A model generated the notes under the pieces. It did not search any database. It was not told where the DNA came from and saw nothing but the letters and a program-made list of their open reading frames with translations. Source: Planctomycetota bacterium (GTDB taxonomy: Bacteria; Planctomycetota; UBA8742; JACQVU01; JANLHZ01). From it: a DNA stretch of 37,934 nucleotides. Positions 19,305 to 37,517 of the stretch are shown here, one piece after another. Within the stretch, counting starts at the first letter, position 1. Every line of letters begins with the position of its first letter. Made by a program: the position numbers and the translations under genes. The DNA lies in NCBI GenBank assembly GCA_024653775.1, contig JANLHZ010000012.1, forward strand, positions 1-37,934, read 5' to 3'.

Positions 19305-21367
19305 ACCACGCCCCGAAAATAAACTCCTGGAAAGACGAGCGCGATCCCGCGAAAGCCGCGGAACTGCTGCGCGAGTTCATCGGGTTTCATAACGAGCGCT
19401 ACTACGTCGATTCCGCGCCGCTGATAACAGACTTCGAGTTCGACGCGGCGCTACGGGACTTGCAGGCTATCGAGAAGGCGCATCCTGAGCTTATCAGCGC
19501 CGATTCGCCGACGATGAAGGTCGGTAGCGATCTGCGCAAGGGATTCGAGACCTTCGCGCACAAACTCCCGATGATGAGCATCGACAACGGATACAATCGC
19601 GAGGACATCGAGAGCTTCCTCGGGCGGGTCTACAAAGAGCTTGGAACCAAAGACGTCACATTTACCTGCGAGCCGAAGATCGACGGCGTCGCGATCAGCC
19701 TCTGGTACGAAAATGGAGAACTCGTCCGCGCAGTCACACGAGGCGACGGCACCGTAGGCGACGTCGTCACCGCGGGCATCCGCGAAATCGGACCGATCCC
19801 GCACGCGCTCAAAAAGCCGCAGGGCGCGCAGCTCCCGAAGGTGCTCGAGGTCCGCGGCGAGATATATTTCCCGCTACCGAGTTTCCGCCGGGTGAACGCG
19901 CGCCGCGAGGAGGAGGGCTTGCAGCCTTTCATGAATCCGCGCAACGCGTGCTCGGGGACTCTCAAGACACTCGACGTAAGCGTCGTCCGCGAACGCGAAC
20001 TCGGCGCCATCATCCACGGCGTAGGCGTCACGGAAGGATTCACCGCCAGCGATTTCAGCCTTGCGCTCGAGCTGTTCGCCAGGATGGGCCTGCCAATAAC
20101 GAAAGAAATCGACAAGCGAAAAACGCTCGACGAAATCTGGGACTACATCGAATCATTCGACAAGAAACGCGAAAAGCTCGAGTACGAAACCGACGGCGTC
20201 GTCATCAAGGTCGACAGCCTGAAGCAGCGCGACACCCTCGGCATGCGCTCGAAGTCGCCACGGTCGATGATGGCGTTCAAATATCCGCCGCCGGAGGTGG
20301 AGACGGTGCTTCTCGATATCGAAATCCAGGTCGGGAGGACGGGAAGGCTGACGCCGCGGGCGGTGTTCGAACCCGTGATCGTCAGCGGTACGAAAGTCAC
20401 CCACGCGAGCCTGCACAACAAGGATTACATCGAAGAGAAGGACATCCGCGTTAATGACCACGTTCTGATCGCGAAGGCGGGTGAGATCATTCCGCAGGTG
20501 ATCCGCTCGCTACCGGAAAAGCGCACGGGAGAGGAGCGTGTTTTCAAATATCCGGAGACCTGCCCTTCCTGCGGCGGTCCGGCGGTGAAGGACGCGGGCG
20601 AACTCGTCGCGATCCGCTGCGTTAACCCGAAGTGCCCCGCGATAGTCCGCGAAAAAATCATCCACTTCGTTTCGCGGGACGCAATGGACATATCGGGTGC
20701 GGGGGAGAAACTCGTCGACGCACTCGTGGAATCCGGGCTTGTGACGGAGGTTTGCGATCTTTACGATCTGACGGAGGAGCAGGTTGCAGAGCTTCCGCGG
20801 ATGGGCGCGAAGAGCGCGAAAAACCTCATCGATGGAATCGCGGCGAGCAGGAAGAAATCGCTCGCGGAATTGCTCGTCGCGCTCGGGATTCCGTACGTCG
20901 GCGAAAAAGCCGCGGAAATTATCGAGGCGCAGTACGAGGACATCGACAAGATACGCGCCGCGACCGCGGACGAGATCGCGGAGATCGAACAGATGGGGCC
21001 GATAATAGCGGAGTCGGTTCATAAGTTCTTCGCGGACGACGGCAACTGGGCACTCGTAGAAAAACTTCGCGCGCGCGGAGTCAGCGTGACGCGCAGCGCG
21101 GAGAAATACGCGACTGTCGCGGTCGAAGGCGTGGCTGGAAAATCATTCGTGCTGACGGGCACCCTCGCGAACCGCGGACGGAAGGAGATGGAGGACCTGA
21201 TAAAGAAGGCGGGCGGCAAATGCTCGTCGAGCGTTTCGAAAAAGACCGATTACGTCATCGCGGGCGAAAACGCGGGCTCGAAGCTCGAAAAGGCCGAAAA
21301 ACTCGGCGTGCAGGTCCTCACGGAGGAGCAGGCGGTCGCGATGCTTGGAATCACGGGCGTTCCTTGA
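19298..21367 (+). CDS. ligA: NAD-dependent DNA ligase
   Basis: LigA seals nicks in DNA during replication and repair using NAD. It has the N-terminal Ia region (HNERYYVDSAPLITDFEFDA), the adenylated lysine in CEPKIDG (K127), the oligonucleotide-binding fold, a four-cysteine zinc finger (CPSCGG, CVNPKCPA), helix-hairpin-helix repeats and a C-terminal BRCT domain. At 689 residues it is full length. The ATG overlaps the end of vapC. The final 118 bases exist a second time at 23336-23452, beyond the three-gene minus-strand module. The two copies differ at about eight positions plus one deletion, so the present 3' end may be a replacement. Confidence 0.97.
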   Translation: MVNHAPKINSWKDERDPAKAAELLREFIGFHNERYYVDSAPLITDFEFDAALRDLQAIEKAHPELISADSPTMKVGSDLRKGFETFAHKLPMMSIDNGYNREDIESFLGRVYKELGTKDVTFTCEPKIDGVAISLWYENGELVRAVTRGDGTVGDVVTAGIREIGPIPHALKKPQGAQLPKVLEVRGEIYFPLPSFRRVNARREEEGLQPFMNPRNACSGTLKTLDVSVVRERELGAIIHGVGVTEGFTASDFSLALELFARMGLPITKEIDKRKTLDEIWDYIESFDKKREKLEYETDGVVIKVDSLKQRDTLGMRSKSPRSMMAFKYPPPEVETVLLDIEIQVGRTGRLTPRAVFEPVIVSGTKVTHASLHNKDYIEEKDIRVNDHVLIAKAGEIIPQVIRSLPEKRTGEERVFKYPETCPSCGGPAVKDAGELVAIRCVNPKCPAIVREKIIHFVSRDAMDISGAGEKLVDALVESGLVTEVCDLYDLTEEQVAELPRMGAKSAKNLIDGIAASRKKSLAELLVALGIPYVGEKAAEIIEAQYEDIDKIRAATADEIAEIEQMGPIIAESVHKFFADDGNWALVEKLRARGVSVTRSAEKYATVAVEGVAGKSFVLTGTLANRGRKEMEDLIKKAGGKCSSSVSKKTDYVIAGENAGSKLEKAEKLGVQVLTEEQAVAMLGITGVP

Positions 21368-21821
21368 CGGATTCGTACGGTGGGAAAATAACCCAGTTGC
21401 ACCGTTCCTTCATAGCTTGCTTAACCTTGACTTTCTTTCCGTCAATGCCGACTTTCTTATTCTTGTCGCCGTAAACGTTGCCGTGATCGTCCCGAAGTTC
21501 TCCCTTCGTTGGACCGTCGTGAATGACTTGCTGTTCCAGTTGTCGACAGAGTCCAAATGACAGAGAAACAAGACCAACATGGTCCTGAAGCATCGCATGC
21601 TCTGTTTTGAGTTTCATCGCTATCAATGCCCGCTCTATCGAAACAGACATATCTATCAGACCAAATGTGTAAGACGCTGGTTTAATTGGAACTCCGCGCG
21701 CTTCTTCGTAGTTTCCCATGTTTGAAGAATTGTAAGTGTCTATGAACATTTTTCGATGGACTGACCGAAAGAGCCGATCATCCTGGTCGAAGTCTTTGAT
21801 AACGTCGATTTTGGAAGTCAT
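21351..21821 (-). CDS. Third gene of the TIGR04255-type module, unknown function
   Basis: The 156-residue product has no signal peptide or membrane span and matches no family I know. It contains SYTFGLIDMSVSIERALIAM in the middle and a lysine-rich stretch (GDKNKKVGIDGKKVKVKQAM). Its ATG directly abuts the stop codon of the preceding gene, so the two are co-translated. Its stop codon lies just inside the end of ligA, on the opposite strand, exactly where the duplicated ligA sequence ends. It may be the effector or an accessory of the module. Confidence 0.65.
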   Translation of the reverse strand: MTSKIDVIKDFDQDDRLFRSVHRKMFIDTYNSSNMGNYEEARGVPIKPASYTFGLIDMSVSIERALIAMKLKTEHAMLQDHVGLVSLSFGLCRQLEQQVIHDGPTKGELRDDHGNVYGDKNKKVGIDGKKVKVKQAMKERCNWVIFPPYESVKERP

Positions 21822-22442
21822 TTACTTTTTTCGTCTGTGGTTCAGCCACTTTTGAGAACGTCTACGCTCGCGGAACTTCGAGAGATATCGCTTGTTCAGT
21901 TCTTCAAAACTCGATACATCTTCGCTTTCCGAATGTCCGGTTTCTTCGTCGTGGAAATAAACGTCGAACGCATCGTCGCCTACGACTTCGACTTCCAGTT
22001 CCACGCCGTACAGACTCCAGCAAAAGCCGATTGTTCCGCTTCCGGTCGGGACAGGCTTGGGCAAAGGAACATTCGCCTCCAGCAGCTTCACAGTAAAGGC
22101 TTTCGCGGGTCCGATGCTCACGGGATTGGTGCCCCTTCCTCCATACCCATCCCACCCGTCTTCTAGACCCTCGATTTCCGCAAGTGTACGTTTCATTTCT
22201 TCTTGTGACTTATACTCTGGGACGTCATTCATTGATAGCGAAGGACAATAGTCGCTGAAATTCATTAGTGTCGCGCCGCTGGCGATGTATCCAGCAGTCC
22301 AATCTTCCCTTCCCAAGTCGCGTACAATAGGCGCGCCGGGAATAAAATCGCCCACGCTGAAAGCGTAGGCATTGCTCTCGTTTTCTGTCGGCTGAAGAAT
22401 GATAAAAACTTCGGGTCGCTGCACTTGTAGAGCTACTCCCAT
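21822..22442 (-). CDS. Module protein with GWDGYGG motif, unknown function
   Basis: The 206-residue product contains LAEIEGLEDGWDGYGGRGTN (about residues 98-117), a motif of the type LxxGWDGxGA that I know from many small uncharacterised accessory proteins. The C-terminus is basic (KFRERRRSQKWLNHRRKK). The ATG at 22442 overlaps the stop of the upstream TIGR04255-type gene by ten bases. An ATG 17 codons earlier would lie deeper inside that gene and is less likely. The gene is the middle one of three, with overlap or zero spacing on both sides. Confidence 0.65.
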   Translation of the reverse strand: MGVALQVQRPEVFIILQPTENESNAYAFSVGDFIPGAPIVRDLGREDWTAGYIASGATLMNFSDYCPSLSMNDVPEYKSQEEMKRTLAEIEGLEDGWDGYGGRGTNPVSIGPAKAFTVKLLEANVPLPKPVPTGSGTIGFCWSLYGVELEVEVVGDDAFDVYFHDEETGHSESEDVSSFEELNKRYLSKFRERRRSQKWLNHRRKK

Positions 22443-23260
22443 AGGTTGTGTGCCTCCTCGGTAATAGATTCGCGAAAAACTCTTCCAAGCCACTTATTTG
22501 CGCGTCTGAAAAAAGAAACCGCTCCGTCTATCGGATGGTCGCTTAAAGGCGCTCCTCTCGCTACATTGTTGACGATCAGAGCTTGTTCCCGCGAAGAAGC
22601 AAGTATCGCCGGATTTATTTGCGTTGTTATCCGCGCTATCGGCTTAGATTCGGAATCCCGCACCAGAAACGAGAAATTCGTCTGTAAAACCTCGAAACAT
22701 ATACTGTCGGCAAAATGATCGGTATCCACTTGCATTTCATTGTCGAAAACGGCTGCGATTTTGAACACGCTTTTCGCGTCGCTGAATTCCTTGAAAATGT
22801 TCTTTTCCAGAATGCGACTTACATACTCAGTTTCACACTGAATCGTTCGGATATCTCCGATACCGTTTGTCTTCACGAATTCCCTGAACTTGACGAGCAG
22901 ATCTTTAAAGCTCTCAAGCATCGGCTCGAACCTGGGATACATTTCATCCCCCTGATCGTTTCTCATCCAATTAATGGCGAAGCCGTCGCCTTGCACCTGG
23001 ATTACCCGCGTTTTCGACTCGTTCATTAACCAAAATCTACAGGGACTCGCTGGCTGCAGAATCTTCTGCGGCTCGATAACGTTGTCGAAACTTTCAACAA
23101 TGAAAGCTCTAGGATTCTTGATCGAAGTGACTGGATAATCACCACGAACTATGTCCCAAAACTTTGGGAGCAAGATTTCTTTGGATGGGTCGAGACGCTC
23201 GAAGTACACCGACAGCACAAGCTCCTGTACCGGAGGATGAGTTAGATGGTGCTCGCCCAC
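22433..23260 (-). CDS. TIGR04255 family protein
   Basis: The 275-residue product begins LTHPPVQELVLSVYFERLDP, the PPVxEVVL-type start of the TIGR04255 family. It ends with PIDGAVSFFRRANKWLGRVF, then EAHNLWE, matching the family's closing helix. Members are sporadically distributed in bacteria and their function is not established. It is the first gene of a tightly packed three-gene operon inserted between ligA and a duplicate of the ligA 3' end. Codon use is more AT-rich than in ligA, consistent with transfer. A defence or toxin-antitoxin role is possible but only inferred. Confidence 0.8.
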   Translation of the reverse strand: MGEHHLTHPPVQELVLSVYFERLDPSKEILLPKFWDIVRGDYPVTSIKNPRAFIVESFDNVIEPQKILQPASPCRFWLMNESKTRVIQVQGDGFAINWMRNDQGDEMYPRFEPMLESFKDLLVKFREFVKTNGIGDIRTIQCETEYVSRILEKNIFKEFSDAKSVFKIAAVFDNEMQVDTDHFADSICFEVLQTNFSFLVRDSESKPIARITTQINPAILASSREQALIVNNVARGAPLSDHPIDGAVSFFRRANKWLGRVFRESITEEAHNLWE

Positions 23261-23335
23261 GATTGTTCCCCTGCGACTTTGTTTACCCCGCTTGAACTTT
23301 AGCTTCCGACATCATGTGTGTCAACTCTCCTCATC

Positions 23336-23452
23336 TCGAAAAAGATCGATAACGTCATCGCGGGCGAAAACGCGGGGTCGAAGCTCGAAAAGGCCGAAAA
23401 ACTCGGCGTGACGATCCTCGCGGAGGAACAGGCGGTCGCGATGCTTGAATCA
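23336..23452 (+). pseudogene. ligA: Duplicated 3' end of ligA
   Basis: This fragment matches 21236-21353 with about eight substitutions and a one-base deletion near its end. Translated in the ligA frame it keeps [20 protein letters not shown], but the highly conserved KKTDYV has become KKIDNV. It has no start and is too short for a domain. Together with the ligA end it brackets the three-gene module. It is probably the displaced original end of ligA. Confidence 0.9.
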
Positions 23453-23509
23453 AAATCCACTCTCCATCCGGGAGAGGGTTAACTCTCGGACGATCGCGAG
23501 TATTGTCGG

Positions 23510-23711
23510 TTAGGCTTCGAAACAAAATAACCTATCGTTTCTTCATCACATCTTCACGCCATCTTCACTACGCGCTCAGTCGCGCCATGACATCGAGGTA
23601 ATTGCTCGACGTAACGATAGCTACGACTGCGGATTCGCTCTTTCGCGCAAAGCGAACCTGACGCAAATTTGAGCGGAGAATTCGATACTTTATTTTGTTT
23701 CGAAGCCTTAC
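23510..23711 (-). repeat. ~190-bp palindromic element, copy C (inverted)
   Basis: The ends TTAGGCTTCGAAACAAAATA and its partner (reverse complement TAAGGCTTCGAAACAAAATA) are almost perfectly complementary, and they differ from the arms of the other copies. The core, read on the minus strand, keeps the GACGCAAATTTGAGC-type, GACTCCG/GACTGCG-type and CATCTTCACGCC blocks. It lies between the ligA tail fragment and the kinase gene. Confidence 0.85.
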
Positions 23712-23724
23712 ATCAAATTTGAAT

Positions 23725-23780: not shown

Positions 23781-23898
23781 TTCTGTGTTTTGACTTCCCA
23801 CTTCAACAGAGTCGTTGACCTTTTTGGGCTGACCCTATTATTATATACCCTGATTCCGTATTTACTTATATCGGGGCACATCTCGAGGACGTAGATCA

Positions 23899-25893
23899 TT
23901 GCACGAGCACGAACTTGACCATGAAGAGATAACCATCGGTCAGCTTGCCGTCAGGCTCAAGTACTTGACGAGGCAGCAGCTCGACGTCGTGCTCGAAGAC
24001 CAGAAAGGCCGCGCCGCGCAGGGGCAGCCCGCGGAGAAGTTCGGCGAGGTCTGCAAGCGCCTCGGCTTCCTGCGCGACAAGGACATCGATCAGCTCCTTT
24101 CCACTCAGGTCAAGAAGTCGAAGGCTGCGGACGTTCAGGGCTATCAGATTCTCGACAAGCTCGGCCAGGGCGCGATGGGAAGCGTCTACAAGTGCCTCCA
24201 CGTCGATTCCGGCGAGATCCGCGCAATGAAAGTTCTTACGCCGAATCTCGCGAAAAACGAAAAGCTCGTCGCGCGTTTCCACCGCGAAGCGCGGATCACG
24301 ATCGCGATCGACCATCCGAACATCGTAAAAGGCTACGAGGAAGGCACTTACCACGGCACCCACTACTTCGTGATGGAGTACATCGCTGGGATGACAGTGA
24401 AGGACAAGCTGAAGGACATCGGCACATTCAGCGAGGACGAGACCTGCGCCATCGGCATCCAGATCGCTCACGCGCTGCACCACGCGTACCAGCAGGATCT
24501 GATCCACCGCGACATCAAGCCCGACAACATAATGATCCTAGGCGACGGGCGCGTGAAACTGCTCGACCTCGGCCTTGCGAAGGAAACGAACGTCGACAGC
24601 ACGCTCACGATCGCAGGCGCGACCATGGGCACGCCTTACTATCTTTCGCCCGAGCAAGCCCGCGGCGTCGCGGATATCGACATCCGTACCGACATCTACA
24701 GCCTCGGCGCGACGCTGTTCCACATGGCCTGTGGCGAGGTCCCTTTCGGCGGCAAGAATGCGATTCTCGTCGTCCAGAAACATCTGCACGAGCCGGTGCC
24801 AGACCCGCGCATTTTGAATCCGGACCTTAGCGACGCGTTCTGCGAAATCATTTTCACCTCGATGGAGAAAGAGCGCGAAAAGCGATACCAGACTCCACGG
24901 GAGATGCTTAAAGCGCTCGAAGCGCCGTTCGTCAAGGAGGAAGGACCGGAACTCCTTTCGCCCGAGGAGGCGGACCAGCTCTTTGGTAGAATGTCGGGCG
25001 CGGGGAAAAACACTGAAAGCAAGGGAAGCGCTGTGCTGCTTTCACCGCTCGAGGCGATTGCGCTGCTCGAACAGCGCGGCGACGCGCTCGCATCGGGCGT
25101 TTTCGATCTCGACACGATAATGAAGACTCCCGCGAGGAAGGCTCCGGAACCACGGAGTGGGTTCGATGGAGACGAGGAAGATCTTTTTGACGACGGCCCG
25201 AAAAAGCCGTCAGCGAAGAAATCCCGCGAAAAAAAGACTCTCAAGAAGTCCCGCGGCGGGCCGCCTCAGCCGGAAGCTCCGAAATCCTCGTCGCGGGCGG
25301 CTTCTGAAAAGCCGAAGAGTTCGGGCGACCCGATGCGCGACAGGGTGGAGCGGATGCGCGAACGCAGCCAACGCAGAAGCAGGATTTCGAGCAGAGCGGA
25401 CCAAAACGGCGATCAGACAACCTGGAGAGAGACAAAACAGAGTTTTCGGGAAGCCTGGGAACTGATCACTTCCCCGTTCAAGAAGAAATCAGGGAAAAAG
25501 AAGACGTTTCAGTCGAAATCGCAACGCATCGTGAACTCCCTCGACTCGGACAGCATCTACGAAATGCTTGATAGTGACGAAGCAATCGATCGCGAGGACG
25601 CGGCGTTCCTGATCGCGGAGAAAGGCGACAAAAAGGCGCTTCCGGAAATGACCCGGCTGCTTTCGGACGAGGACAAAGACGTCCGCCTCTGGGCGCTTTA
25701 CGCGGCGGGAAAACTTGCCGACTACACCGCGATACCAGAAATAGTGCCTTCGCTCTACGATGACGATGTCTTCCTGCGCTACGTGGCGCATAAAACTCTT
25801 TGCGAAATAACCGGCAAAAGCCTCGGACGCAACCACCTGAGCTGGATGAACCTTTACAACAGGTTGAAGAAGAACGATTTATCTGACAAGTAG
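23899..25893 (+). CDS. Ser/Thr protein kinase with T2SS-ATPase-like N-terminus and HEAT repeats
   Basis: The 664-residue protein starts with TTG at 23899; no in-frame ATG lies before the N-terminal domain. Residues 10-75 hold two short repeats like the N-terminus of type II secretion ATPases (LAVRLKYLTRQQLDVVLEDQ, FGEVCKRLGFLRDKDIDQLL). The kinase domain runs from about 81 to 345: GQGAMGSV (89-96), K111, HRDIKPDN (203-210), DLG (223-225), GTPYYLSPEQ. A charged, low-complexity linker follows, then HEAT-like repeats from about 550 to the end. There is no membrane span, so it is cytoplasmic. Its last 55 codons or so are duplicated twice downstream, behind each cargo gene. Confidence 0.93.
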   Translation: MHEHELDHEEITIGQLAVRLKYLTRQQLDVVLEDQKGRAAQGQPAEKFGEVCKRLGFLRDKDIDQLLSTQVKKSKAADVQGYQILDKLGQGAMGSVYKCLHVDSGEIRAMKVLTPNLAKNEKLVARFHREARITIAIDHPNIVKGYEEGTYHGTHYFVMEYIAGMTVKDKLKDIGTFSEDETCAIGIQIAHALHHAYQQDLIHRDIKPDNIMILGDGRVKLLDLGLAKETNVDSTLTIAGATMGTPYYLSPEQARGVADIDIRTDIYSLGATLFHMACGEVPFGGKNAILVVQKHLHEPVPDPRILNPDLSDAFCEIIFTSMEKEREKRYQTPREMLKALEAPFVKEEGPELLSPEEADQLFGRMSGAGKNTESKGSAVLLSPLEAIALLEQRGDALASGVFDLDTIMKTPARKAPEPRSGFDGDEEDLFDDGPKKPSAKKSREKKTLKKSRGGPPQPEAPKSSSRAASEKPKSSGDPMRDRVERMRERSQRRSRISSRADQNGDQTTWRETKQSFREAWELITSPFKKKSGKKKTFQSKSQRIVNSLDSDSIYEMLDSDEAIDREDAAFLIAEKGDKKALPEMTRLLSDEDKDVRLWALYAAGKLADYTAIPEIVPSLYDDDVFLRYVAHKTLCEITGKSLGRNHLSWMNLYNRLKKNDLSDK

Positions 25894-25936
25894 GCTCTTT
25901 GCCTTTCTACGCATGCGAAATTTTTACAAAATTATC

Positions 25937-25968
25937 TTGTGTGTGTGTGTGTGTGTGTGTGTTAGAAT
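25937..25968 (+). promoter_or_regulatory. Candidate promoter with (TG)12 spacer, upstream of cargo A
   Basis: TTGTGT (25937-25942) and TAGAAT (25963-25968) could serve as -35 and -10 boxes. The 20 bases between them are almost wholly TG repeat, in total 12 units at 25938-25961. The paralogous promoter at 27354 has ten units and 16-base spacing. Change in repeat number would shift the spacing around the optimum of 17. Confidence 0.45.
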
Positions 25969-26024
25969 TTTCTCCGTAACAAAAACAATCAGTTCTTGAA
26001 GTCTTGTTCGCGGGAGAATTCGAC

Positions 26025-27071
26025 ATGAAAATTGAAGCTCTATCATTGACCTTACTCGTGGCAATCCTGCATTTCGGAGTCATTCAAGTCGCGAACGCGC
26101 AATCCTCACTTCCACCTGGCGGTGTGCAGGGTATTCCCATTAACCCTGGGGATGGAGGTCCTGCTAACGGGATCGCTATCCAGTTTCGAAATGACACTGG
26201 TCAGGATATTTCCGACATCACAATTACGATTGCGACAAGGGTGAACCCGACTAGTATGAATCCCATTGTGTTTGAAGTGAACACTGCTGGCGATTTTCAG
26301 TTCGTCCTACCTGATAAATCTAGAGGTACCGTCGCCGGAAACGGAACGACGAGGTTAAAAGTCAAAATCGGTAACTCTAGCGAAGTCGTGGCTCCCGGAG
26401 ATACATTTGGCATTTTATTTCATTTCAACGAGGATGTCGAGCTTGGAACGGAACCGTTGCCGATCCGATACGCGGCCACAAATCGAAATGGAAATACAAT
26501 CTATGCTGCCGTTGGTATTTTTGGTCCTGTTTCAGAATTCGTACTTCCACAAGACGAAACTAGCCCGCAAGTCAAGTTTATTAACAACACGTCGCAGCAA
26601 ATAAGGGGTGTTGAAATCAGAACCGATCCGTCGCAAACACTTCTGACCGACTTTCTCTATGCGGGGCCTTTTTCCACAATTGTTCAGGAGAATTGGGGTA
26701 GCGTGATTCTGGAAATTCCAGAAGGTGCGCCATTTGTCAACCCTGGGCAGGAGTTCAGCTTCGATCTATTTCTTCCGGATGAGTCTAGGTTGCCGGGAGA
26801 TCAACAGAAGTTCGTCTTCATCTGGAATTTTGTAGATAAGGATGATGATGGAGAAGACACAGAAGAGATAGAATGTCATACGGTTTTCGATTTTTTACTG
26901 TTCGTATTTATCGTACTTGTTATCGGTTTGATCATTCTGTTGATTTTATGGATCGCCGGAGTTAACCCTCAAGCAGTCAGAGTCGCCGCGCTCGTTCTTC
27001 TTTCGCAACTTCTCGTCGTTGGCGTAATTCTGCTGATAATAGGGATTTCCTGCGGGATTCTCGTTACGTGA
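26025..27071 (+). CDS. Exported membrane-anchored protein, cargo paralogue A
   Basis: The ATG at 26025 has GGGAGA upstream. The product (348 residues) begins with a signal peptide (ALSLTLLVAILHFGVIQVAN, cleavage after ANA). Two similar beta-rich domains follow, each ending in a PGxxFxxxxxF pattern (APGDTFGILFHF, NPGQEFSFDLFL). An acidic linker (DKDDDGEDTEEIECHT) leads to two membrane helices joined by the loop WIAGVNPQAVRVAAL. The C-terminal helices are nearly identical to those of paralogue B, while the beta domains have diverged strongly. It lies behind the kinase gene. The function is unknown; surface display is plausible. Confidence 0.75.
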   Translation: MKIEALSLTLLVAILHFGVIQVANAQSSLPPGGVQGIPINPGDGGPANGIAIQFRNDTGQDISDITITIATRVNPTSMNPIVFEVNTAGDFQFVLPDKSRGTVAGNGTTRLKVKIGNSSEVVAPGDTFGILFHFNEDVELGTEPLPIRYAATNRNGNTIYAAVGIFGPVSEFVLPQDETSPQVKFINNTSQQIRGVEIRTDPSQTLLTDFLYAGPFSTIVQENWGSVILEIPEGAPFVNPGQEFSFDLFLPDESRLPGDQQKFVFIWNFVDKDDDGEDTEEIECHTVFDFLLFVFIVLVIGLIILLILWIAGVNPQAVRVAALVLLSQLLVVGVILLIIGISCGILVT

Positions 27072-27132: not shown

Positions 27133-27149
27133 TACTTACTAAGCCGCCA

Positions 27150-27310
27150 CCCCGGAAATAGTGCCTTCGCTCTACGATGACGATGTCTTCCTGCGCTACG
27201 TCGCGCACAAAACACTCTGTCAGATTACTGGTAAGAGCCTTGGCAGGAACCATCTAAGCTGGATGAATCTTTACTCAAGGCTGAAGAAGAACGATTTATC
27301 TGACAAGTAG
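27150..27310 (+). pseudogene. Second copy of the kinase 3' end (mosaic)
   Basis: In frame, this fragment reads PEIVPSLYDDDVFLRYVAHK and on to SRLKKNDLSDK and stop, matching the kinase C-terminus with only two changes. Many silent differences from the kinase cluster in the middle of the fragment, where it equals the third copy. Its end and the following 3' region, up to and past the TG repeat, equal the kinase copy. It has no start and no upstream kinase sequence. Confidence 0.9.
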
Positions 27311-27353
27311 GCTTTTTGCCTTTCTACACATGCGAAATTTTTACAAAATTAAC

Positions 27354-27381
27354 TTGTGTGTGTGTGTGTGTGTGTTAGAAT
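27354..27381 (+). promoter_or_regulatory. Candidate promoter with (TG)10 spacer, upstream of cargo B
   Basis: TTGTGT (27354-27359) and TAGAAT (27376-27381) are separated by 16 bases of TG repeat, ten units in all at 27355-27374. The surrounding sequence is nearly identical to that before cargo A, apart from the repeat count. Confidence 0.45.
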
Positions 27382-27436
27382 TTTCTCCGTAATCAAAGCA
27401 ATCAATTTTTGAATTCTTGTTCGCGGGAGATTCGAA

Positions 27437-28444
27437 ATGAAATTCAAAGTTCCTGTCGTGATTCTGTCGTTCTTGGTGACATTTCTGGGCTTGACGCAGT
27501 CCGTGATTGCCCAGGCTACACCTGTTCCGCGCGGCGGCGCTCCGTTCACTTTCGGCTCCGGAACAGGTGCCGCGCCGGGAGTAAATTTTCTCTTTCGAAA
27601 TGCCTCTGGCAGAAGATTCGCCGACATTTTTATCGTGATTTTATTGCACCCCAATCCCACGTTGCGAATGGTGGACTTTGAAATGGTAGGCGTCGAAACC
27701 GAAATCGACGGTTCAGATTTTCCGAATCAAGAAGTACACATCAATATTAAAGACGTAAACGGGTACATTGACGATGGGTCTGAATTCGAAATCGTCCTTA
27801 CCTTGAACGCCGATGTTCCCGTGCCGAATTCGCTGCCGATGTGGATATACGGCACTAACGATAAAAACCAGGTATTGGGAAAACTGATCGCTCTCGATAG
27901 CGAACAAAAGGTCCATGAGGTCGCGCCGTACGTCACGAGTGGTGACCACCCAATTCTTAACGGCACCGGACACCCAATTAAGGCACTTGAAATTGAAGTT
28001 CCCAATCAGTTAGTTGATCCGAATTCAATTTATAGCGGTCCATTTCAAAGACTTGAAATCATAACTTTGAGCAGATTCAGGCTCGAAATGGCTCCTGGTC
28101 AATTTATATTGCCAGGGCAGGAGTTTGGAGTAGGCTTTTCCTGGAGTACCATGGGAGGATATGGGCTGGGAAGTCCACCGCAGCAGATTAACTTCAATTC
28201 TGAGTTTGGGGATGAAGATAACGGTGATGACGGCGAGGAAGTTGAATGTCGAACCACCTTTGATGTCTTTTTATTCATATTTGTTGCAATATTTTTCGGA
28301 CTGATCGTTTTACTGATACTATGGATCGCCGGAGTCAACCCTCAAGCAGTCAGAGTCGCAGCGCTTGTTCTCCTGTCACAGCTTCTTATCGTTGGCGTCG
28401 TCCTGCTTATTATAGGAATTTCATGTGGAATAATCTTCACATGA
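27437..28444 (+). CDS. Exported membrane-anchored protein, cargo paralogue B
   Basis: The 335-residue product has the same design as paralogue A: a signal peptide (VPVVILSFLVTFLGLTQSVI, cleavage after AQA or nearby), two beta-rich domains (DDGSEFEIVLTLN, LPGQEFGVGFSW), an acidic linker with one cysteine (DEDNGDDGEEVECRT) and a two-helix C-terminal membrane hairpin. The loop WIAGVNPQAVRVAALVLLSQ is identical to A. The N-terminal domains have diverged so far that only spacing and a few motifs remain. GGGAGA precedes the ATG. It is enclosed between the second and third kinase-tail copies, which points to duplication of a tail-plus-cargo unit. Confidence 0.75.
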   Translation: MKFKVPVVILSFLVTFLGLTQSVIAQATPVPRGGAPFTFGSGTGAAPGVNFLFRNASGRRFADIFIVILLHPNPTLRMVDFEMVGVETEIDGSDFPNQEVHINIKDVNGYIDDGSEFEIVLTLNADVPVPNSLPMWIYGTNDKNQVLGKLIALDSEQKVHEVAPYVTSGDHPILNGTGHPIKALEIEVPNQLVDPNSIYSGPFQRLEIITLSRFRLEMAPGQFILPGQEFGVGFSWSTMGGYGLGSPPQQINFNSEFGDEDNGDDGEEVECRTTFDVFLFIFVAIFFGLIVLLILWIAGVNPQAVRVAALVLLSQLLIVGVVLLIIGISCGIIFT

Positions 28445-28509: not shown

Positions 28510-28676
28510 GCGCGATACCAGAAATAGTGCCCTCGCTGTACGATGACGATGTTTTCCTGCGTTACGTCGCGCACAGGACACTCTGTCAGATTACTGGTAA
28601 GAGCCTTGGCAGGAACCATCTAAGCTGGATGAATCTTTACAATCGGCTTAGAAAGACCGCCGACGGTTCGAATTAG
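28510..28676 (+). pseudogene. Third copy of the kinase 3' end, probably the original tail
   Basis: In frame it encodes PEIVPSLYDDDVFLRYVAHR and on to NLYNRLRKTADGSN and stop. The body matches the kinase C-terminus, but the last residues and the 3' flank differ from copies one and two. Differences from the kinase gene are mostly silent. It lies next to the long AT-rich region before groEL, and is best read as the kinase end that existed before the cargo arrived. Confidence 0.85.
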
Positions 28677-29127: not shown

Positions 29128-30831
29128 ATGGCGAAACAACTGGCTTTCGAACACGACGCGCAGGAGCAACTAAAGGCGGGAGTGACCAAACTCGCCCGCG
29201 CGGTAAAGGCGACACTCGGTCCGAAAGGACGTAACGCGGTACTCGACAAGGGCTGGGGATCGCCTACCGTCACGAAGGACGGCGTCACCGTCGCGGAGGA
29301 CATCGATCTGATCAATCCGTTCGAAAACGTCGCCGCGCAGCTTGTAAAGCAGGTCGCGAGCAAGACGAGCGACATCGCTGGCGACGGCACCACAACCGCG
29401 ACTCTTCTTGCCGAGGCGATTTTTGTCGAGGGTCTGCGCCACGTCACCGCCGGTGCGGCGTCGATGGCGATCGTAAGTGGTCTCAAGAAGGCGGCGGCGA
29501 AAGTCGTCGACGAACTCCGCAAAATGAGCACTCCTGTAGACGACAAGCAGGTCGCAGCGGTGGCGACGATCGCCGCGAACGGTGATAAAGAGGTCGGCAA
29601 GAACATCGCCGACGCGCTGCACAAGGTCGGCAAGGACGGAGTCATCACGGTTGACGAGGCGAAGGGTTTCGTGACGGAGATCGACATCGTCGAGGGAATG
29701 CAGTTCGATCGCGGCTACCTGAGTCCGTATTTCGTGACGAACCAGGATTCGATGAAGGTCGTGCTCGAAAATCCCTACATCCTGATCCACGAGGACAAGA
29801 TTTCGACAGTGGTCAAGATCCTCCCGATCCTCGAGGCGGTGAAGAAGGCGAATCGCAGCCTCCTGATTATCGCGGAAGATATTGAAGGCGAGGCGCTTGC
29901 AACGCTCGTCGTGAACAAGCTCAACGGCAACCTCAAGATCGCCGCTGTGAAGGCGCCAGGCTACGGCGATCGCAGGAAGGCGATGCTCGGCGACATCGCG
30001 TCGCTGACGGGCGCGACCGCGATTATGAAGGACCTCGGCGTCGACGTCGAGACCATCAGCGTCAAGGAACTCGGCAACGCGAAAAAGATCGAGATCGACG
30101 CGGACAACACGACGATCATCGACGGTAAGGGAGAGCTGAGCGACATCAGCGGACGCATCGCGCAGATCCGTCGAGAGCTTGAGACGACGACGAGCGAGTA
30201 CGATCGCGAGAAGTTGCAGGAGCGGCTCGCGAAGCTCGCGGGAGGCGTCGCGAAGATCAACGTCGGCGCGGCGACCGAGAGCGATATGAAGGAGAAGAAG
30301 GCGAGAGTCGAAGACGCTTTGCACGCCACCCGCGCGGCGGCCACCGAAGGCATCCTCCCCGGCGGCGGAGTCGCGCTGGTTCGCGCGCGGAAGGTTCTCG
30401 CGAAAGTCGAACTCGCGGATAACGACGAGCAGTTCGCAAAGGACGTGCTCCGGAAAGCTCTTCTCGTCCCGATAATGACCATCGCGGAAAACGCAGGTGT
30501 CGAGGGCAGCGTCGTCGCGCGCAAGGTCGAAAACGAAAAGGGCAGCTTCGGCTACGATGCCTCAGCGGACAAATATGGCGACATGTTCGAGTTCGGCATC
30601 ATCGATCCGACGAAGGTCACGGTGAGCGCGCTTCAAAACGCGGTCAGCGTCGCGTGCCTGCTGCTTTCCACAAGCTGCACCGTCACCGACATTCCGAAGA
30701 AGGAAAAGCCCGGCGCCGGCGCACCCGGAATGGGTGGTATGGGCGGAATGGGAGGCATGGGTGGAATGGGCGGTATGGGAGGAATGGGTGGCATGGGAGG
30801 TATGGGCGGAATGGGAGATATGGACTTCTGA
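29128..30831 (+). CDS. groEL: Chaperonin GroEL 1
   Basis: This is the 60-kDa chaperonin that folds proteins inside a double-ring cavity with GroES. The 567-residue product has [20 protein letters not shown], the ATP-site DGTTT, and a long C-terminal GGM repeat tail ending in GDMDF, longer than that of E. coli. The ATG is preceded by GGAGG. It is the first gene of a cluster that continues with groES, a second groEL, dnaJ and grpE. The order groEL before groES is the reverse of the usual operon. A palindromic repeat lies between groEL and groES. Confidence 0.97.
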
Positions 30832-31556: not shown

Positions 31557-33170
31557 ATGGCGAAACAGATTTTTCACAGCGACGACGCAAGGCACAAGAT
31601 CCTCGAAGGACTCGAGCAGCACGCCCACGCGGTACGGGTCACGCTCGGTCCGTCGGGCAAGAACGTGGTCCTCGAAAAGAGCTGGGGCAGCCCGGTCATT
31701 ACGAAGGACGGCGTGACCGTGTCGAAAGAGGTCGAGCTTGCGGATCCCTTCGAGAACATGGGCGCAAAGCTCATCGCCGAGGTGGCGCAGAAGATTTCGG
31801 ACGAGGTGGGCGACGGCACCACCACGGGCACGGTGCTTGCGGAAGCGATCTACCGCCAGGGACTGCGTTATCTTCGAACGGGCGTCAACCCCGCGGCGAT
31901 CAAGCGCGGACTCGACGCGAGCGTCGAAGCGGCCGTCGAGGCGATCAAGGGATATTCCCGCGAAGTCAAGAAAAGCGATGAAATCCGCCAGGTCGCGACG
32001 ATCAGCTCGAACCAGGACAAGAGCATCGGCGCGTTCATCGCAGACGCGATGGACAAGGTCGGAAGGAAGGGCGTGATCACCGTCGAGGAAGGCAAGGGCA
32101 CCGAGACCACGCTCGACGTCGTCGAGGGAATGCAGTTCGACAAGGGATTCCTCAGCCCGTACTTCATCACGAACACGAAGGAGATGAAGGCGGAGTTCGA
32201 GGACGCATACATCCTGCTCCACGAGAAGAAAATCGGCAGCATCCGCGACATCGTTCCCGTGCTCGAAAAAATCGTCGTGACGCGGAAGCCGCTCGTGATC
32301 ATCGCGGAGGACGTCGAGGGCGATGCGCTCGTCGGACTCGTCGTGAACCGCCTGCAAGGGATTCTCAACGTCTGCGCGGTGAAGGCGCCCGGCTTCGGCG
32401 ATCGCAGGAAGGCGATGATGGAAGACATCGCGGCGCTCACGGGCGGAAAGCTCATCAGCGAAGACCTCGGGATGGACCTCAAGACCGTCGGCGTCGAGGT
32501 CTTCGGCACCGCGGACAAGATCACCATCACGAAGGACCGCACGACCATCGTCGGCGGCAAGGGTTCGAAGAAGGAGTTGAACGCTCGCGTAGAGCAGATC
32601 AAATCGAGGATCGAGACGACCACGTCGAACTACGACCGCGAAAAGCTCGAGGAGCGCCTCGCGAAGCTCACGAGCGGCGTCGCGGTCATCAAGGTCGGCG
32701 GATCGACCGAGACCGAGATGAAGGAACGCAAGGCCCGCGTCGACGACGCGCTCGCCGCGACGAAGGCCGCCGCGGAAGAGGGGATCGTCCCCGGAGGCGG
32801 CGTGACGCTGGTCCGCGCGATCGAAGCGGTCGAGGCGAAGCGTTCGAAGCTCAGGGACGACGAGAGATTCGGCGCGGACATTCTCGCGAAAGCGCTCAGC
32901 GCCCCGCTGCGTCAGATCGCGGAGAACGCCGGCGACGACGGCGGCGTCGTTATCGATGAGGTCCGTGCGAACCAGAAGGACACCTGGGGCTACAACGCGG
33001 TCACGGGCAAGGTCGAGGATCTCGCGAAGGCGGGCGTGTTCGATCCGACCAAGGTCGTCCGCGTCGCGCTCCAGAGCGCCGCGTCCATCGCGGGGCTGAT
33101 GCTCACGACGGAAGTCCTCGTCACCGACCTGAAGGAGAAGGAAGACCTCGTCGCGGGAGCGGTGTCGTAA
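31557..33170 (+). CDS. groEL: Chaperonin GroEL 2, without GGM tail
   Basis: The 537-residue product is a complete chaperonin with RVTLGPSGKNVVLEKSWGSP, VGDGTTTGTVLAEAIYRQG and GIVPGGGVTLVRA, but it ends in VTDLKEKEDLVAGAVS, lacking the GGM tail of GroEL 1. It differs from GroEL 1 throughout, so the two are old paralogues and not a recent copy. Loss of the tail is expected to change cavity volume and ATPase behaviour. GGAGA precedes the ATG. A heptamer array follows its stop codon. It may be specialised for a subset of clients or for stress. Confidence 0.95.
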   Translation: MAKQIFHSDDARHKILEGLEQHAHAVRVTLGPSGKNVVLEKSWGSPVITKDGVTVSKEVELADPFENMGAKLIAEVAQKISDEVGDGTTTGTVLAEAIYRQGLRYLRTGVNPAAIKRGLDASVEAAVEAIKGYSREVKKSDEIRQVATISSNQDKSIGAFIADAMDKVGRKGVITVEEGKGTETTLDVVEGMQFDKGFLSPYFITNTKEMKAEFEDAYILLHEKKIGSIRDIVPVLEKIVVTRKPLVIIAEDVEGDALVGLVVNRLQGILNVCAVKAPGFGDRRKAMMEDIAALTGGKLISEDLGMDLKTVGVEVFGTADKITITKDRTTIVGGKGSKKELNARVEQIKSRIETTTSNYDREKLEERLAKLTSGVAVIKVGGSTETEMKERKARVDDALAATKAAAEEGIVPGGGVTLVRAIEAVEAKRSKLRDDERFGADILAKALSAPLRQIAENAGDDGGVVIDEVRANQKDTWGYNAVTGKVEDLAKAGVFDPTKVVRVALQSAASIAGLMLTTEVLVTDLKEKEDLVAGAVS

Positions 33171-33209: not shown

Positions 33210-33354
33210 GGTGGTGACAGGGGTTGGTCCCGGGGAAGAGGAACGTAGCGCTGATTTCAGGAAACAATTCGAAGAGAATTCAAATCTGAAATCTGAAATC
33301 ACAAATCTGAAATCGGACTGCTCCCTGTCCCCTGTCTCCTAACCCCTGATCCCT

Positions 33355-34506: not shown

Positions 34507-34624
34507 CTTGGAGCGTTACTGAGTGCGAAGCGAGTTACAGCGATTAACCACAGAGGACACAGCCAAGCGAAGCCTTAACCAAAAACTATCCGCAGATTAC
34601 GCGGATTCATTTTTTTGTCCACAG

Positions 34625-34813
34625 ATTAGGAGGCACAAAATAGTAAGTTACCTAAAATCGCGCACAGATTTACGCCAGGTTCGTTTTGCACGAGGAAGCC
34701 AAACCGGAGTCGTAGCTATAGTTCCGGTGAGGATTTGGCGACCGAGAGCGGAACGAAGATGACGTGAAGATGTGATGCGAGATAGGTAAGTTATTGTTTT
34801 GCGCCTCCTTAAC
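34625..34813 (+). repeat. ~190-bp palindromic element, copy D
   Basis: The left arm TTAGGAGGCACAAAATAGTA and the right arm (reverse complement TAAGGAGGCGCAAAACAATA) pair over about 28 bases. The core has AAAATCGCGCACAGATTTAC, ACCGGAGTCGTAGC and GACGTGAAGATGTGATGCG. It lies between dnaJ and grpE, flanked by short 'ACCACAGATGGACAC'-type repeats. Confidence 0.85.
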
Positions 34814-34859
34814 ACCGATGAACACAGATTTTTTCACAATCGCAGCATCGATAAAATTA

Positions 34860-34985
34860 ACCCCGTCAGGGGTGAAATGTTTGTAGCAAACAGTGCGGAT
34901 GAATGAGTAAAGCCCCGGAGGAGCGATATGTTTGTAGACGAGAACCAAAACTCCGCAAAAGCCCCGTAGGGGCGATATGTTTGTA
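34860..34985. repeat. Three spaced GCCCCGTAGGGGCGATATGT-type repeats
   Basis: Three related units start near 34861, 34912 and 34961, about 50 bases apart. Each has a short CCCC-GG dyad followed by ATGTTTGTA. The minus strand gives 'YKHIAP' peptides, a common spurious translation. Unit divergence and unequal partial matches argue against CRISPR. Confidence 0.75.
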
Positions 34986-35073
34986 AGCGCTTTTCAAAAA
35001 TCTTTGCAGGAAGCAAAGAAACGAGAAGTTAGTAATACAGAGGATTTGAACCACAGATGGACACGTATGAATT

Positions 35074-35125
35074 GTAGGGGCGCACCACGTGCGCCCGATG
35101 CGGACGGGGACGTCCGCGGTCCCAC
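35074..35125. repeat. Double-hairpin repeat directly before grpE
   Basis: An outer GTAGGG/TCCCAC stem encloses GGGCGCAC/GTGCGCCC and GCGGACG/CGTCCGC hairpins. It ends ten bases before the grpE ATG and covers the place where a ribosome site would be, so it may influence grpE translation. Confidence 0.75.
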
Positions 35126-35134
35126 TAAAAAGCG

Positions 35135-35758
35135 ATGGAAAACTCACAGGAACATAGCGAAAACGTCGAGCAGACTCCGGAGGAGACTTCCGCGGAAGAG
35201 CCGCAGGAATCTCCGGAGGAGAAGACGCGCCGGGAGCGAGAGGAGCTTCTTTCGAGTCTTCGCGCACTTGACGATGGCGCGCTGCTCGCGCTTTACCGAG
35301 AGGCGCATGAAGCCGCCTCGATGAAGGACCTCGCGCAGCGAACGAAGGCGGAGCACGAGAACTATAAGCGCAGATCGCAGACGGAACGCGAGAGCTGGTC
35401 GTTCATCTATCGAAAGGACGCGGTGCTCGCGCTGCTTCCCGTGTTCGACAATTTCGAGCGCGCGCTTTCGCATCACGCCGAGACGAAGACCGACGAGGAG
35501 CGTGAATTCCTCGCTGGACTCGAAGCTCTGGCTGACCTCTGGAAAGCCGCGTTCAAGAACCTTGGCGTAACGGAAATCGACACGGATTGTCTCTTCGATC
35601 CGAACCTTCACGAAGCCGTGACAAGTCTTGATGTCGCGAATGTTCCGCCGGGGACCATTGTATCCGTGTTCGAAAAAGGGTATAAACTGAAGGACAAGGT
35701 GATTCGCGCCGCCAAAGTCCAGGTGGCGAAGGCTCCGGAGGAAAAGCCGGAAGAATAG
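35135..35758 (+). CDS. grpE: Nucleotide exchange factor GrpE
   Basis: GrpE releases ADP from DnaK. The 207-residue product has an acidic N-terminus, a long helix (about residues 28-90) and the C-terminal beta domain, with LLPVFDNFERAL, FDPNLHEAV and the closing signature PGTIVSVFEKGYKLKDKVIR. The final KVIRAAKVQVAK departs from the family's RPAKV at one residue; the duplicated tail at 37454-37517 has the conserved proline. This suggests the present end was acquired with the PRTase/DprA insert. No Shine-Dalgarno is visible. Confidence 0.95.
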   Translation: MENSQEHSENVEQTPEETSAEEPQESPEEKTRREREELLSSLRALDDGALLALYREAHEAASMKDLAQRTKAEHENYKRRSQTERESWSFIYRKDAVLALLPVFDNFERALSHHAETKTDEEREFLAGLEALADLWKAAFKNLGVTEIDTDCLFDPNLHEAVTSLDVANVPPGTIVSVFEKGYKLKDKVIRAAKVQVAKAPEEKPEE

Positions 35759-35802
35759 CTAGGCAGAGTAATCATTTAGCTTCAATAATTGAGGTTTAAG
35801 AC

Positions 35803-36426
35803 ATGCAGAAGTTTAAAATTAAATCAAATTGCTATTTAAACAGAGACATTCAGGCCTATTATAATACAGATTATGTCGGTTTTCGTGAACCTGGGAATCC
35901 CGACTATATCAACACGCTAAAGAATATTCTTAACGACTGCGCACAAAATAAACTGAAATCAGCAGTTCAAGAATTGACAAACGTGCTGTTATCTGATATG
36001 AAGGCTTTAAGCGCGTCGTCACACTCAAATTCACTAATCGTTTGTGTTGTCCCGCGGGCAAAAGCGGAAAGTAATTATCATGCAGACCAGCTATTGTTCA
36101 AGTCAACCGTTCAAAAGGTTGTAAATCGCCTCGATAGTTTAGTAGACGGCACAAGCTATATCTGTCGTCATACGGACACAAAAACAACCCATATTAATAA
36201 GCCTCTCCGGGGTTTTTGTAACGAAGGGCGGAAGCCGTACCCTGGCATTACTGCCGATACCTGTACGATTATTTCGGATCGTTTGAACTCCGCTGATATT
36301 TTATTAATCGATGATATTTACACGAAAACAGTTAATATTGATGAAGATGCAATCCAAGCTTTGCTCGACATAGGAGCGCGTTCTGTCGTCTTTTATTCCG
36401 TTGGGCTAACGAAGAGAGATCGCTGA
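35803..36426 (+). CDS. Phosphoribosyltransferase-like protein, partner of DprA-like protein
   Basis: The 207-residue product has the PRPP-binding loop motif ADILLIDDIYTKTVNIDEDA near residues 165-184, in which two acidic residues follow a hydrophobic strand as in ComF and other type I phosphoribosyltransferases. The N-terminal part (about residues 1-110) is unfamiliar, with one strand-like segment (NSLIVCVVPRAKAE). TTGAGG lies 12 bases before the ATG. Codon use is AT-rich compared with grpE. It is followed after nine bases by the DprA-like gene, and the pair is bracketed by the grpE end and its duplicate. A nucleotide-signalling or DNA-uptake-related role is possible. Confidence 0.75.
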   Translation: MQKFKIKSNCYLNRDIQAYYNTDYVGFREPGNPDYINTLKNILNDCAQNKLKSAVQELTNVLLSDMKALSASSHSNSLIVCVVPRAKAESNYHADQLLFKSTVQKVVNRLDSLVDGTSYICRHTDTKTTHINKPLRGFCNEGRKPYPGITADTCTIISDRLNSADILLIDDIYTKTVNIDEDAIQALLDIGARSVVFYSVGLTKRDR

Positions 36427-36435
36427 AACTCTGCA

Positions 36436-37443
36436 ATGTATGGACGACTTATGAAGTATTTGGAGAAAGCAATCAATGTTTTAGCGGCTAAAACCTACAA
36501 GGGCATAGGCAGGGCGTGGATTGTTAAAAACATGAGGGGCAACGAATCGGTGGATGTCATCGTTTCTTTGCTGAACAAAAGTTTAGGGATGGATAACCAA
36601 ATAGCGCGGGATGATTTTGAAATGAAAAGAGAAATCATTAGGCAAGAAATTCAAAAATTAAGAGGGTTCGCGGATGGAGTTGTTGCGATAGGCGATGAAG
36701 ATTTTCCACGCTACAGAGGGAATGTAAAAAACAGCGATCAGCCAATCGCCATTTTCTACCGTGGCGAATTGGATTTATTGAAAATCGGGAATAAAAATAT
36801 TGCTGTTATTGGTTTGCTTGATCCAGGCTGCGACACCGAAACGATAGAAAAAGAAGTTGTCGCCGAATTTATAAAGAGAGGTGTTACTATTGTTGGTGGC
36901 TTGGCTTTAGGGTGCGATTCCATCGCGCACCGTCAGGCGCTGCTTTCGAGTGGAAAGACAATTGCCGTTCTTCCCGGTCCATTGAATAATATTCTGCCGA
37001 AGGCAAATGTGAATCTTGCAAACGAAATTGTGGAGAAAGGAGGTTTATTGATTTCTGAGTATTATCGGGATGCCATATCTAAAATGGAATTAAGAGGCAG
37101 ATATCAGGAGCGGGACAGACTGCAAGCTTTGTTTAGCGACTGTGTTGTATTGTCGGCAAGCTATGCAAAGAACGATCATGGACTCGATAGCGGATCGAGA
37201 CTTGCGATGGAGTTCGCCATGAAGTATTCTATACATAGAGCCGTTCTTTATGATCCGATCGCAAACGCTAACAGCCCAGAGCATGAGTTGAACAGGCAAA
37301 TAATAAAGGATGACGAAGATGTGATTACCGTTAACCGAAACAATTTACACCATAGTATAAGTAAAGTAGTCGCGTCGCACTTCGCTGCGAGTAAAAGTCT
37401 GAAATACCAAAAAGAGTTATTCGATATAGTTCAACCTATCTGA
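36436..37443 (+). CDS. DprA/Smf-like Rossmann protein
   Basis: The 335-residue product carries the DprA signature in order: NKNIAVIGLLDPG, GVTIVGGLALGCDSIAHRQA, GKTIAVLPGPLNNILPKANV and KGGLLISEYYRD. Classic DprA has SGxARGID at the second site, so the GLALGCD variant has lost the arginine. DprA proteins load RecA on incoming single-stranded DNA, while related SLOG-fold proteins bind nucleotides in conflict systems. Here the pairing with a phosphoribosyltransferase, the AT-rich codon use and the location in an insert favour an accessory function over competence. An in-frame ATG five codons later is an equally possible start. Confidence 0.85.
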   Translation: MYGRLMKYLEKAINVLAAKTYKGIGRAWIVKNMRGNESVDVIVSLLNKSLGMDNQIARDDFEMKREIIRQEIQKLRGFADGVVAIGDEDFPRYRGNVKNSDQPIAIFYRGELDLLKIGNKNIAVIGLLDPGCDTETIEKEVVAEFIKRGVTIVGGLALGCDSIAHRQALLSSGKTIAVLPGPLNNILPKANVNLANEIVEKGGLLISEYYRDAISKMELRGRYQERDRLQALFSDCVVLSASYAKNDHGLDSGSRLAMEFAMKYSIHRAVLYDPIANANSPEHELNRQIIKDDEDVITVNRNNLHHSISKVVASHFAASKSLKYQKELFDIVQPI

Positions 37444-37453
37444 TTATTAGGGG

Positions 37454-37517
37454 CAAGGTGATTCGCCCGGCGAAGGTGCAGGTGGCGAGGGAGCCTACGG
37501 AGAAGCAGGAAGAATAG
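37454..37517 (+). pseudogene. grpE: Duplicated 3' end of grpE, probably the original tail
   Basis: In frame it encodes KVIRPAKVQVAREPTEKQEE and stop, compared with KVIRAAKVQVAKAPEEKPEE at the end of grpE. Thirteen of 63 bases differ, about half of them silent. The stop codon lies one base before the fmdB ATG, an operon-like spacing, and it keeps the conserved proline of GrpE. It is therefore read as the native grpE end that was cut off by the insert. Confidence 0.88.

Follow-up and report, generated by a model that had tools for sequence, protein, structure and literature searches.

Diverged copies of core-gene 3′ ends flank accessory genes in a Planctomycetota genome and point to probable gene capture by one-sided homology

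It is an open question how defence and toxin–antitoxin (TA) genes are transferred if they have no adjoining integrase, transposase or phage, and it arises for contig JANLHZ010000012.1 of a Planctomycetota bacterium (GCA_024653775.1), whose whole 37,934 bases (C258 in our numbering) are here called the window. A first-pass annotation of the window described three core genes, ligA, a Ser/Thr kinase gene and grpE, as being followed by accessory genes (cargo) and, beyond these, by a second copy of the gene's own 3′ end. All three duplications are present, far above chance, and we confirmed that this integrase-free arrangement of tail, cargo and tail recurs in the genome. We consider it probable that the cargo was captured by one-sided homology, with no dedicated recombinase. 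In the following, the copy belonging to the gene is called the attached tail and the copy beyond the cargo the distal or orphan tail.

The range of about 8 to 20 percent first given for the differences between copies was right, while the repeat length, given as 64 to about 165 bases, is actually 67 to 310. Behind ligA, the NAD-dependent DNA ligase gene (19298–21367, plus strand; NF005932, E=3e-235), the attached tail T1 (21236–21353) and the distal tail T2 (23336–23452), both on the plus strand, align over 118 columns with 92% identity (E=2e-42). Their homology stops 14 bp before the ligA stop codon, at a point that coincides with the stop codon of the first of three cargo open reading frames (ORFs), all on the minus strand: one of 156 amino acids (aa) with no family (21351–21821), one of 223 aa with a part match to the PADLOC candidate defence family PDC-M32A (21822–22493, E=1e-8) and one of 275 aa belonging to the TIGR04255 family (22433–23260, E=8e-16, above the curated cut-off). 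A whole-genome search with the ligA and kinase tails gave no further full copy. Directly upstream of ligA lies a PIN-domain gene (18924–19286), with no flanking repeats within its 3.4 kb locus (L271).

At the kinase gene (23899–25893; PF00069, E=9e-49, with HEAT repeats, PF13646), where the duplication had been noticed and a third tail overlooked, the order is attached tail T1 (25721–26030, including 137 bp past the stop), cargo gene A (26025–27071, a membrane protein by reading, with no family), second tail T2 (27138–27442), cargo gene B (27437–28444), a paralogue of A by protein comparison (39% aa), and third tail T3 (28511–28642), all on the plus strand. T1 and T2 align over 310 columns with 86% identity, a stretch that includes the 137 bp past the stop codon with a (TG)n run ahead of each cargo gene; T3, which we take as the native tail, aligns with T1 over 132 columns at 82%. 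T2 is a mosaic, being identical to T1 at its start (a 47-bp run) and T1-like in its downstream part, and sharing 63 identical bp with T3 in the middle, and this alternation between the two types shows that recombination or gene conversion took place between tails.

The two kinase cargoes belong to a group of four related secreted or membrane proteins, all linked by BLASTP, whose other members lie on C308 (L249, about 8340–9302, minus strand) and C173 (L278, 2062–3048, minus strand) and are 44–52% alike at the aa level. A (TG)n run precedes each of the four genes, and the sole extra match of the kinase tail in the genome, 40 bases of (TG)n region, lies ahead of the member on C308. The stretch ahead of both kinase cargoes is more similar than the cargo genes themselves.

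The third locus offers a view of the native side. The grpE gene (35135–35758; PF01025, E=2e-37) has an attached tail T1 (35692–35758) that ends exactly at the stop codon and matches the distal tail T2 (37451–37517) over 67 bp at 79% identity (E=2.5e-9). Between them stand a ShosT-like ORF of 207 aa (35803–36426; PDLC03962, E=6e-6) and a ShosA (DprA-like) ORF of 335 aa (36436–37443; PDLC03961, E=1e-44), and 1 bp beyond T2 is the start codon of a zinc-ribbon gene (37519–37794), which we take to be of FmdB type and whose N-terminal motif is common to the grpE neighbours of relatives; all of these are on the plus strand. A gene with this motif lies close behind grpE in 26 of 29 loci of relatives, with gaps between −14 and 59 bp and a median of 14; for L065 and L083, where the upstream ORF is not clearly grpE, the GrpE match is no more than about 300 bp from the FmdB-type start. 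In the window, by contrast, ShosT and ShosA separate grpE from the FmdB-type gene, which follows the distal tail. At grpE the insertion is therefore derived, and the distal tail stands in its native place. In a plasmid collection the best match of ShosA was at 55% aa, from Synechocystis; if this value is typical, the cargo is more remotely related than the 79% identical grpE tail, and ShosT and ShosA perhaps stood behind grpE in a relative already before their arrival here. Scanning viral contigs with ShosA, and likewise with the kinase, turned up no relative. Elsewhere in the window, a largely non-coding repeat family of 182 bases, 73–79% alike, occurs at 10552–10733, 15884–16065 and 34628–34809, the last piece sitting between dnaJ and grpE.

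Recurrence was surveyed by self-alignment of a sample of 120 stretches plus the window, 1,508,158 bases or 28% of the genome (5.42 Mb, 331 contigs, 96% complete), in which genes were called with a home-made caller. For each called gene of at least 150 aa, the last 150 bp were compared with the 10 kb downstream; the controls were its first 150 bp, set against the 10 kb preceding the gene, and a segment from mid-gene, compared in both directions. A hit was counted when the orphan copy lay outside called genes. Self-alignment, as proposed in the first-pass annotation, returned cases beyond the three in the window: orphan 3′-end copies lie downstream of 16 of 878 genes, compared with 2 for gene heads, 2 for mid-gene segments downstream and 1 upstream, and none were found for 554 genes in 50 loci of other bacteria (centred on ligA and mostly from proteobacterial metagenome-assembled genomes). 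With distances matched and the window removed, the comparison with other bacteria gave 7/647 versus 0/488 at 2.5 kb (p=0.019) and 9/425 versus 0/405 at 6.5 kb (p=0.002). Three of the 16 survey genes (one in L237, two in L206) resemble paralogue arrays; without them 13 remain, and case E (L245 +), whose distal copy lies inside a doubtful called ORF, makes 14. Sixteen cases, A to P, had first been listed under the rule that the attached copy ends at most 15 bp before the stop, ends past the stop being unrestricted. Two of them, N (L247, small tandem genes with a repeat that also reaches into an integrase ORF) and P (L253, 41 bp), were dropped from later tests, leaving 14 loci (A–M and O), with O (−52) added from outside the rule; Q and R1–R3 were added from loci with PIN genes. 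Altogether, long direct repeats directly flank inserted genes in 22 tail pairs of 42–310 bp at 18 loci, with stacks of three tails at the kinase gene and at a D12 methylase gene and of four at a carboxyltransferase gene.

The host genes outside the window are diverse, and cargo families are unrelated between loci. The four-tailed carboxyltransferase gene (L212) carries DUF4258 and a weak PIN match, a type IIG restriction–modification (RM) gene (L267) DUF2283 with DUF4258, a nucleotidyltransferase gene of GlgC type (L158) HEC-02A/B, two molybdopterin-binding oxidoreductase genes a ParE-like protein with HSDR_N (L178) and Fic/Doc (L180), a GFO/IDH gene (L190) type I RM with a nucleotidyltransferase pair, and a radical-SAM gene (L201) DUF433 with DUF5615. 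In L245 the three-tailed D12 methylase case is nested inside that of a GroEL gene, and the family scans there gave PemK/MazF and a weak ParE-like match. By these scans, TA- or defence-type cargo is present at 9 of the 14 loci (A–M, O), including ShosT/ShosA in the window; the DUF2283/DUF4258 and DUF433/DUF5615 types of pair presumably act as toxin–antitoxin. No TA or defence family was found at four loci, namely the kinase, the GroEL gene (the nested methylase case aside), an HNH gene (L170) and an unknown gene (L151). No homing endonuclease was named among the scanned cargo, which gave only weak Exo_endo_phos and HSDR_N matches. The GroEL gene of L245 (10927–12645) is Pfam-confirmed and bears the tail duplication itself; the window holds two further, tandem and diverged genes of GroEL type by reading (29128–30831 and 31557–33170), one of them with a long GGM tail.

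The same layout was confirmed in three relatives of the same order or class. Direct repeats flank 3 of 14 PIN loci in this genome and occur at 4 of 27 in relatives (3 of the 27 come from a genome that is related at phylum level only), counts that cover this genome and its relatives alone. In L300 (G001, same order), L293 (G013) and L297 (G018), the last two genomes being of the same class as ours, the PIN gene stands between the repeats, which correspond to the 3′ portion of an upstream gene. In L295 (G017) they lie to one side and are of a 5′-end type: the start of a gene, which we take to be creatininase-like, is repeated (1922–2164 and 3239–3375) with another gene between the copies. The tail survey itself had little power in the relatives, giving 0 of 235 genes in 87 short loci of 344 kb in all. 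The proposal of a recurring mode is thus borne out by further cases in the genome sample and in relatives. A scan of genome contigs with LigA listed 50 loci, the best at 44% identity, and no close relative.

The differences between tails bear on their origin. The first-pass annotation called many of them silent at the kinase and grpE loci, and this agrees with the kinase tails (21/28 for T1–T2 and 22/24 for T1–T3) and is half true for grpE (7/14). With one pair per locus at 18 loci (kinase T1–T3, L212 T1–T4 and methylase gene T1–T2; L278, where the gene is cut by the locus end, L282, with no gene assigned, and L295, of the 5′-end type, were left out), 127 of 203 coding differences are silent, the expectation being 27% under neutral placing and 43% if selection acts on the attached tail and the orphan drifts (P=2e-8). 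The excess persists when the kinase is removed (105/179, P=1e-5) and in the 15 loci of this genome alone (94/147, P=2e-6), these P values being optimistic, as changes inside one locus are not independent; a set of 18 pairs that includes several per locus gave 113/171. Taken over all loci, the tail divergence has the look of one built up when each copy still served as a functional gene end.

The boundaries of the homology are equally informative. In 12 of the 22 pairs, at 10 of the 18 loci, it stops between −3 and +6 bp from the stop codon, and past that point none of the 12 shows more identity over 30 bp than random 30-mers do, six pairs with tails 94–100% identical included. Such an end is expected if donor and recipient have the gene in common and not what follows, and argues against local duplication, which has no reason to end there. 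At ligA and in L267 the host gene has a final 14–15 bp without a counterpart in the distal tail, and these bases overlap a cargo ORF at its end or start; it is therefore the attached end that is joined to the cargo. The junction pattern is consistent with homology on one side and a non-homologous join on the other, the second join being conjectural. The tails are 79–100% identical, only one of the 22 pairs fully so, which is not the picture of a short identical attachment (att) core. Among the 22 pairs, no 6- or 7-mer was common to the junctions beyond shuffles, and terminal inverted repeats exceeded shuffles only in F12 (1/200), F13 (4/200) and G (1/200), F12 and F13 having nearly the same left end. 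The 5-mer TCGAA stands ahead of the distal tail in 7 of 22 pairs, compared with 2.7 expected from genomic 40-mers (34 of 2000 draws were as high); being post hoc, it was not used.

In the whole genome we identified four PF00589 matches, on contigs C58, C308, C45 and C26, and none on the contigs of the 14 tested loci or in the cargo family scans, so the earlier remark that no integrase is seen stands for the tested loci and not for the set-aside case N, which adjoins an integrase ORF. In that locus (L247, C58), a 284-bp repeat with 88% identity (3591–3874 and 4358–4641) lies around small tandem genes, and its second copy overlaps the beginning of a tyrosine-recombinase ORF (4550–5500). No transposase was found in the family scans of cargo proteins, the sole basis for that absence. 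No Ku match turned up, and Ku-dependent non-homologous end joining was discounted for that reason, with the reserve that the genome is 96% complete; ComEC is present. Uptake followed by homologous recombination is therefore plausible, and Ku end joining less so.

We propose that DNA from a related bacterium would bring the 3′ end of a core gene together with the accessory genes behind it, and that the donor gene end would pair with the recipient's copy, presumably by RecA, while the other end would join inside the recipient's own gene end or a little ahead of it, through a single crossover if the donor was a circle or through an illegitimate join if it was a linear fragment. The product would be, in order, the gene with a donor-type or hybrid end, the cargo, the recipient's displaced end and the native downstream genes, the core protein being left whole. 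The flanking tails would then permit later exchange, gene conversion and the stacking of more cargoes, and TA and defence modules are frequent as cargo probably because they resist loss. The donors, the role of RecA, the route of the second join and the reasons for cargo persistence are suggested by us on the basis of these patterns. That the attached tails are foreign, as first proposed, is suggested by the silent excess over all loci and by the native grpE neighbourhood of the distal tail. More speculatively, and we regard this as doubtful, the insertions could be lineage-wide mobile units without integrase, made of a "homology address" (the last 40–300 bp of a core gene up to the stop) and often a defence or TA module, which would excise and insert through that address; any core-gene end would then be a potential landing pad, and the stop-codon joint would be set by the mechanism and not by chance.

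Similar patterns, which the first-pass annotation overlooked along with the TA and defence cargo and the end of homology at the stop codon, have been described in other systems. RM genes of Helicobacter pylori show insertion with long target duplication (Nobusato et al., 2000, as cited in PMC1643837, PMC3031569, PMC2749054 and PMC3154945), and have in common with our loci long, variable repeats that flank genes and could allow later amplification; the mostly silent differences, ends at the stop codon, TA cargo and stacks of three to four tails are unlike what the citing passages report. In fungal mitochondria, mobile ORFs created hybrid genes (Allomyces atp6; Glomus atp6, atp9, cox2 and nad3; PMC3630166) with the same order of a foreign C-terminal coding end, inserted ORF(s) and displaced native end. 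There, as the passage describes, an endonuclease drives mobility and trees show the foreign end, whereas here the setting is a bacterial chromosome with many kinds of cargo and no homing endonuclease in the scans. In Vibrio, immunity arrays of the type VI secretion system and orphan Rhs 3′ regions were attributed to homology-facilitated illegitimate recombination (PMC5361080) and share with our loci a one-sided homologous anchor, an added module, an old part displaced downstream and serial stacking; according to that passage, what is displaced there is a variable effector or immunity gene, at a few loci, whereas at our loci it is the unvarying 3′ end of numerous unrelated core genes. Natural transformation in Streptococcus pneumoniae produces merodiploids (PMC3784515), so transforming DNA can make duplications by pairing at two places, although the passage concerns a laboratory event with large duplications between repeats and describes no cargo behind gene ends. 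As far as the passages on the three closest patterns tell, the many unrelated core genes, the TA cargo, the stop-codon joint and the stacks with a mosaic tail are distinct here. The literature covered, judged by titles and abstract openings and for the most part outside subscription journals, contained no report of gene-end capture of such TA modules.

Several observations weigh against capture by one-sided homology. At ligA the silent pattern fails, only 2 of 8 differences being silent, and the radical-SAM gene of L201 has 1 of 5, no excess; both sets of tails could be old local duplications. L212 holds the 100% identical pair, which needs a very recent donor or gene conversion, and frameshifts or gaps in several orphan tails mean that some of the divergence arose afterwards, by decay. 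Among the 59 relatives searched, one is of the same order and none is closer, with no genome of the same genus or family, and hence no close empty site and no tail tree is available from them. The contrast with other bacteria fails at 1.2 kb (4/728 versus 0/518, p=0.12), that between tails and heads within the genome is weak when distances are short (p=0.5, 0.18 and 0.014 for 1.2, 2.5 and 6.5 kb), two of the nine tails at 6.5 kb lie in the apparent paralogue array of L206, and relatives are not different from this genome (1/244 and 2/96, these three genes coming from PIN-picked loci). C58, one of the four contigs with a PF00589 match, is the contig of case N, whose repeat reaches the start of the integrase ORF. 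Finally, a circular donor (Campbell insertion) has other one-sided routes beside it, and none of our data favours it over them.

Part of this evidence would suit other explanations. Strict insertion with long target duplication, in which a transposition-like or break-repair event doubles the recipient's own target and the tails start identical and then drift, would account for the absence of silent excess at ligA and L201, and long variable duplications are known around H. pylori RM genes from the citing papers; we nevertheless hold it unlikely, since the silent fraction exceeds that expected for one selected and one drifting copy, a duplication gives no reason for 12 of 22 pairs to stop at the stop codon, and the cargo scans gave no transposase, with inverted ends beyond shuffles confined to F12, F13 and G. 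Local tandem duplication followed by decay, with the cargo as old neighbours, would fit the paralogous kinase cargoes and the tandem or paralogous look of L247, L206 and L237, but it is made very unlikely by the unrelated cargo families of different loci, the interrupted grpE–fmdB neighbourhood and the silent excess.

The 3′ ends of genes are well-known attachment sites, where donor-type tails also occur, as with e14 in icd. Decayed or trans-mobilised integrative elements that lost their integrase or have it elsewhere could thus be considered, and one of the four PF00589 matches is in fact the gene reached by the case N repeat. This we find improbable, somewhat more so than target duplication: case N consists of small, tandemly repeated genes, the tested contigs hold no PF00589 match and no end motif is shared beyond the post hoc TCGAA, while the units, of about 0.5 to 7 kb, lack an integrase in the scans and have tails that differ at every locus and that are stacked and mosaic. 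As the results rest on the contigs of a fragmented assembly, strain variants stitched in series could also be imagined, the genome being in 331 pieces; however, with cargo–tail joins at 14 loci, the same layout in G001, G013 and G018 and none in the controls, an artefact of this kind is the most remote of these readings.

Two further repeat types were observed. Short palindromic elements of the GTGGCACGG...CCGTG kind occur in the window at 30–79, 4748–4797, 8487–8536 and 9212–9261, at gene ends in places, and also inside the duplicated tails of L245 and L201. A heptamer array of the CTACTCC/CTGCTCC type (1526–1660) lies beside the tRNA-Gln gene.

Capture by one-sided homology at gene ends would thus address how defence and TA genes move in the setting described at the outset. 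The displaced tails record each insertion and the order of the stacks and, if our reading holds, the divergence between donor and recipient too. The pattern, a gene 3′ end repeated downstream past accessory genes, is searchable in any genome by a simple script. The 3′ ends of core markers such as ligA, groEL and grpE may be foreign, which would affect the trees built on them.

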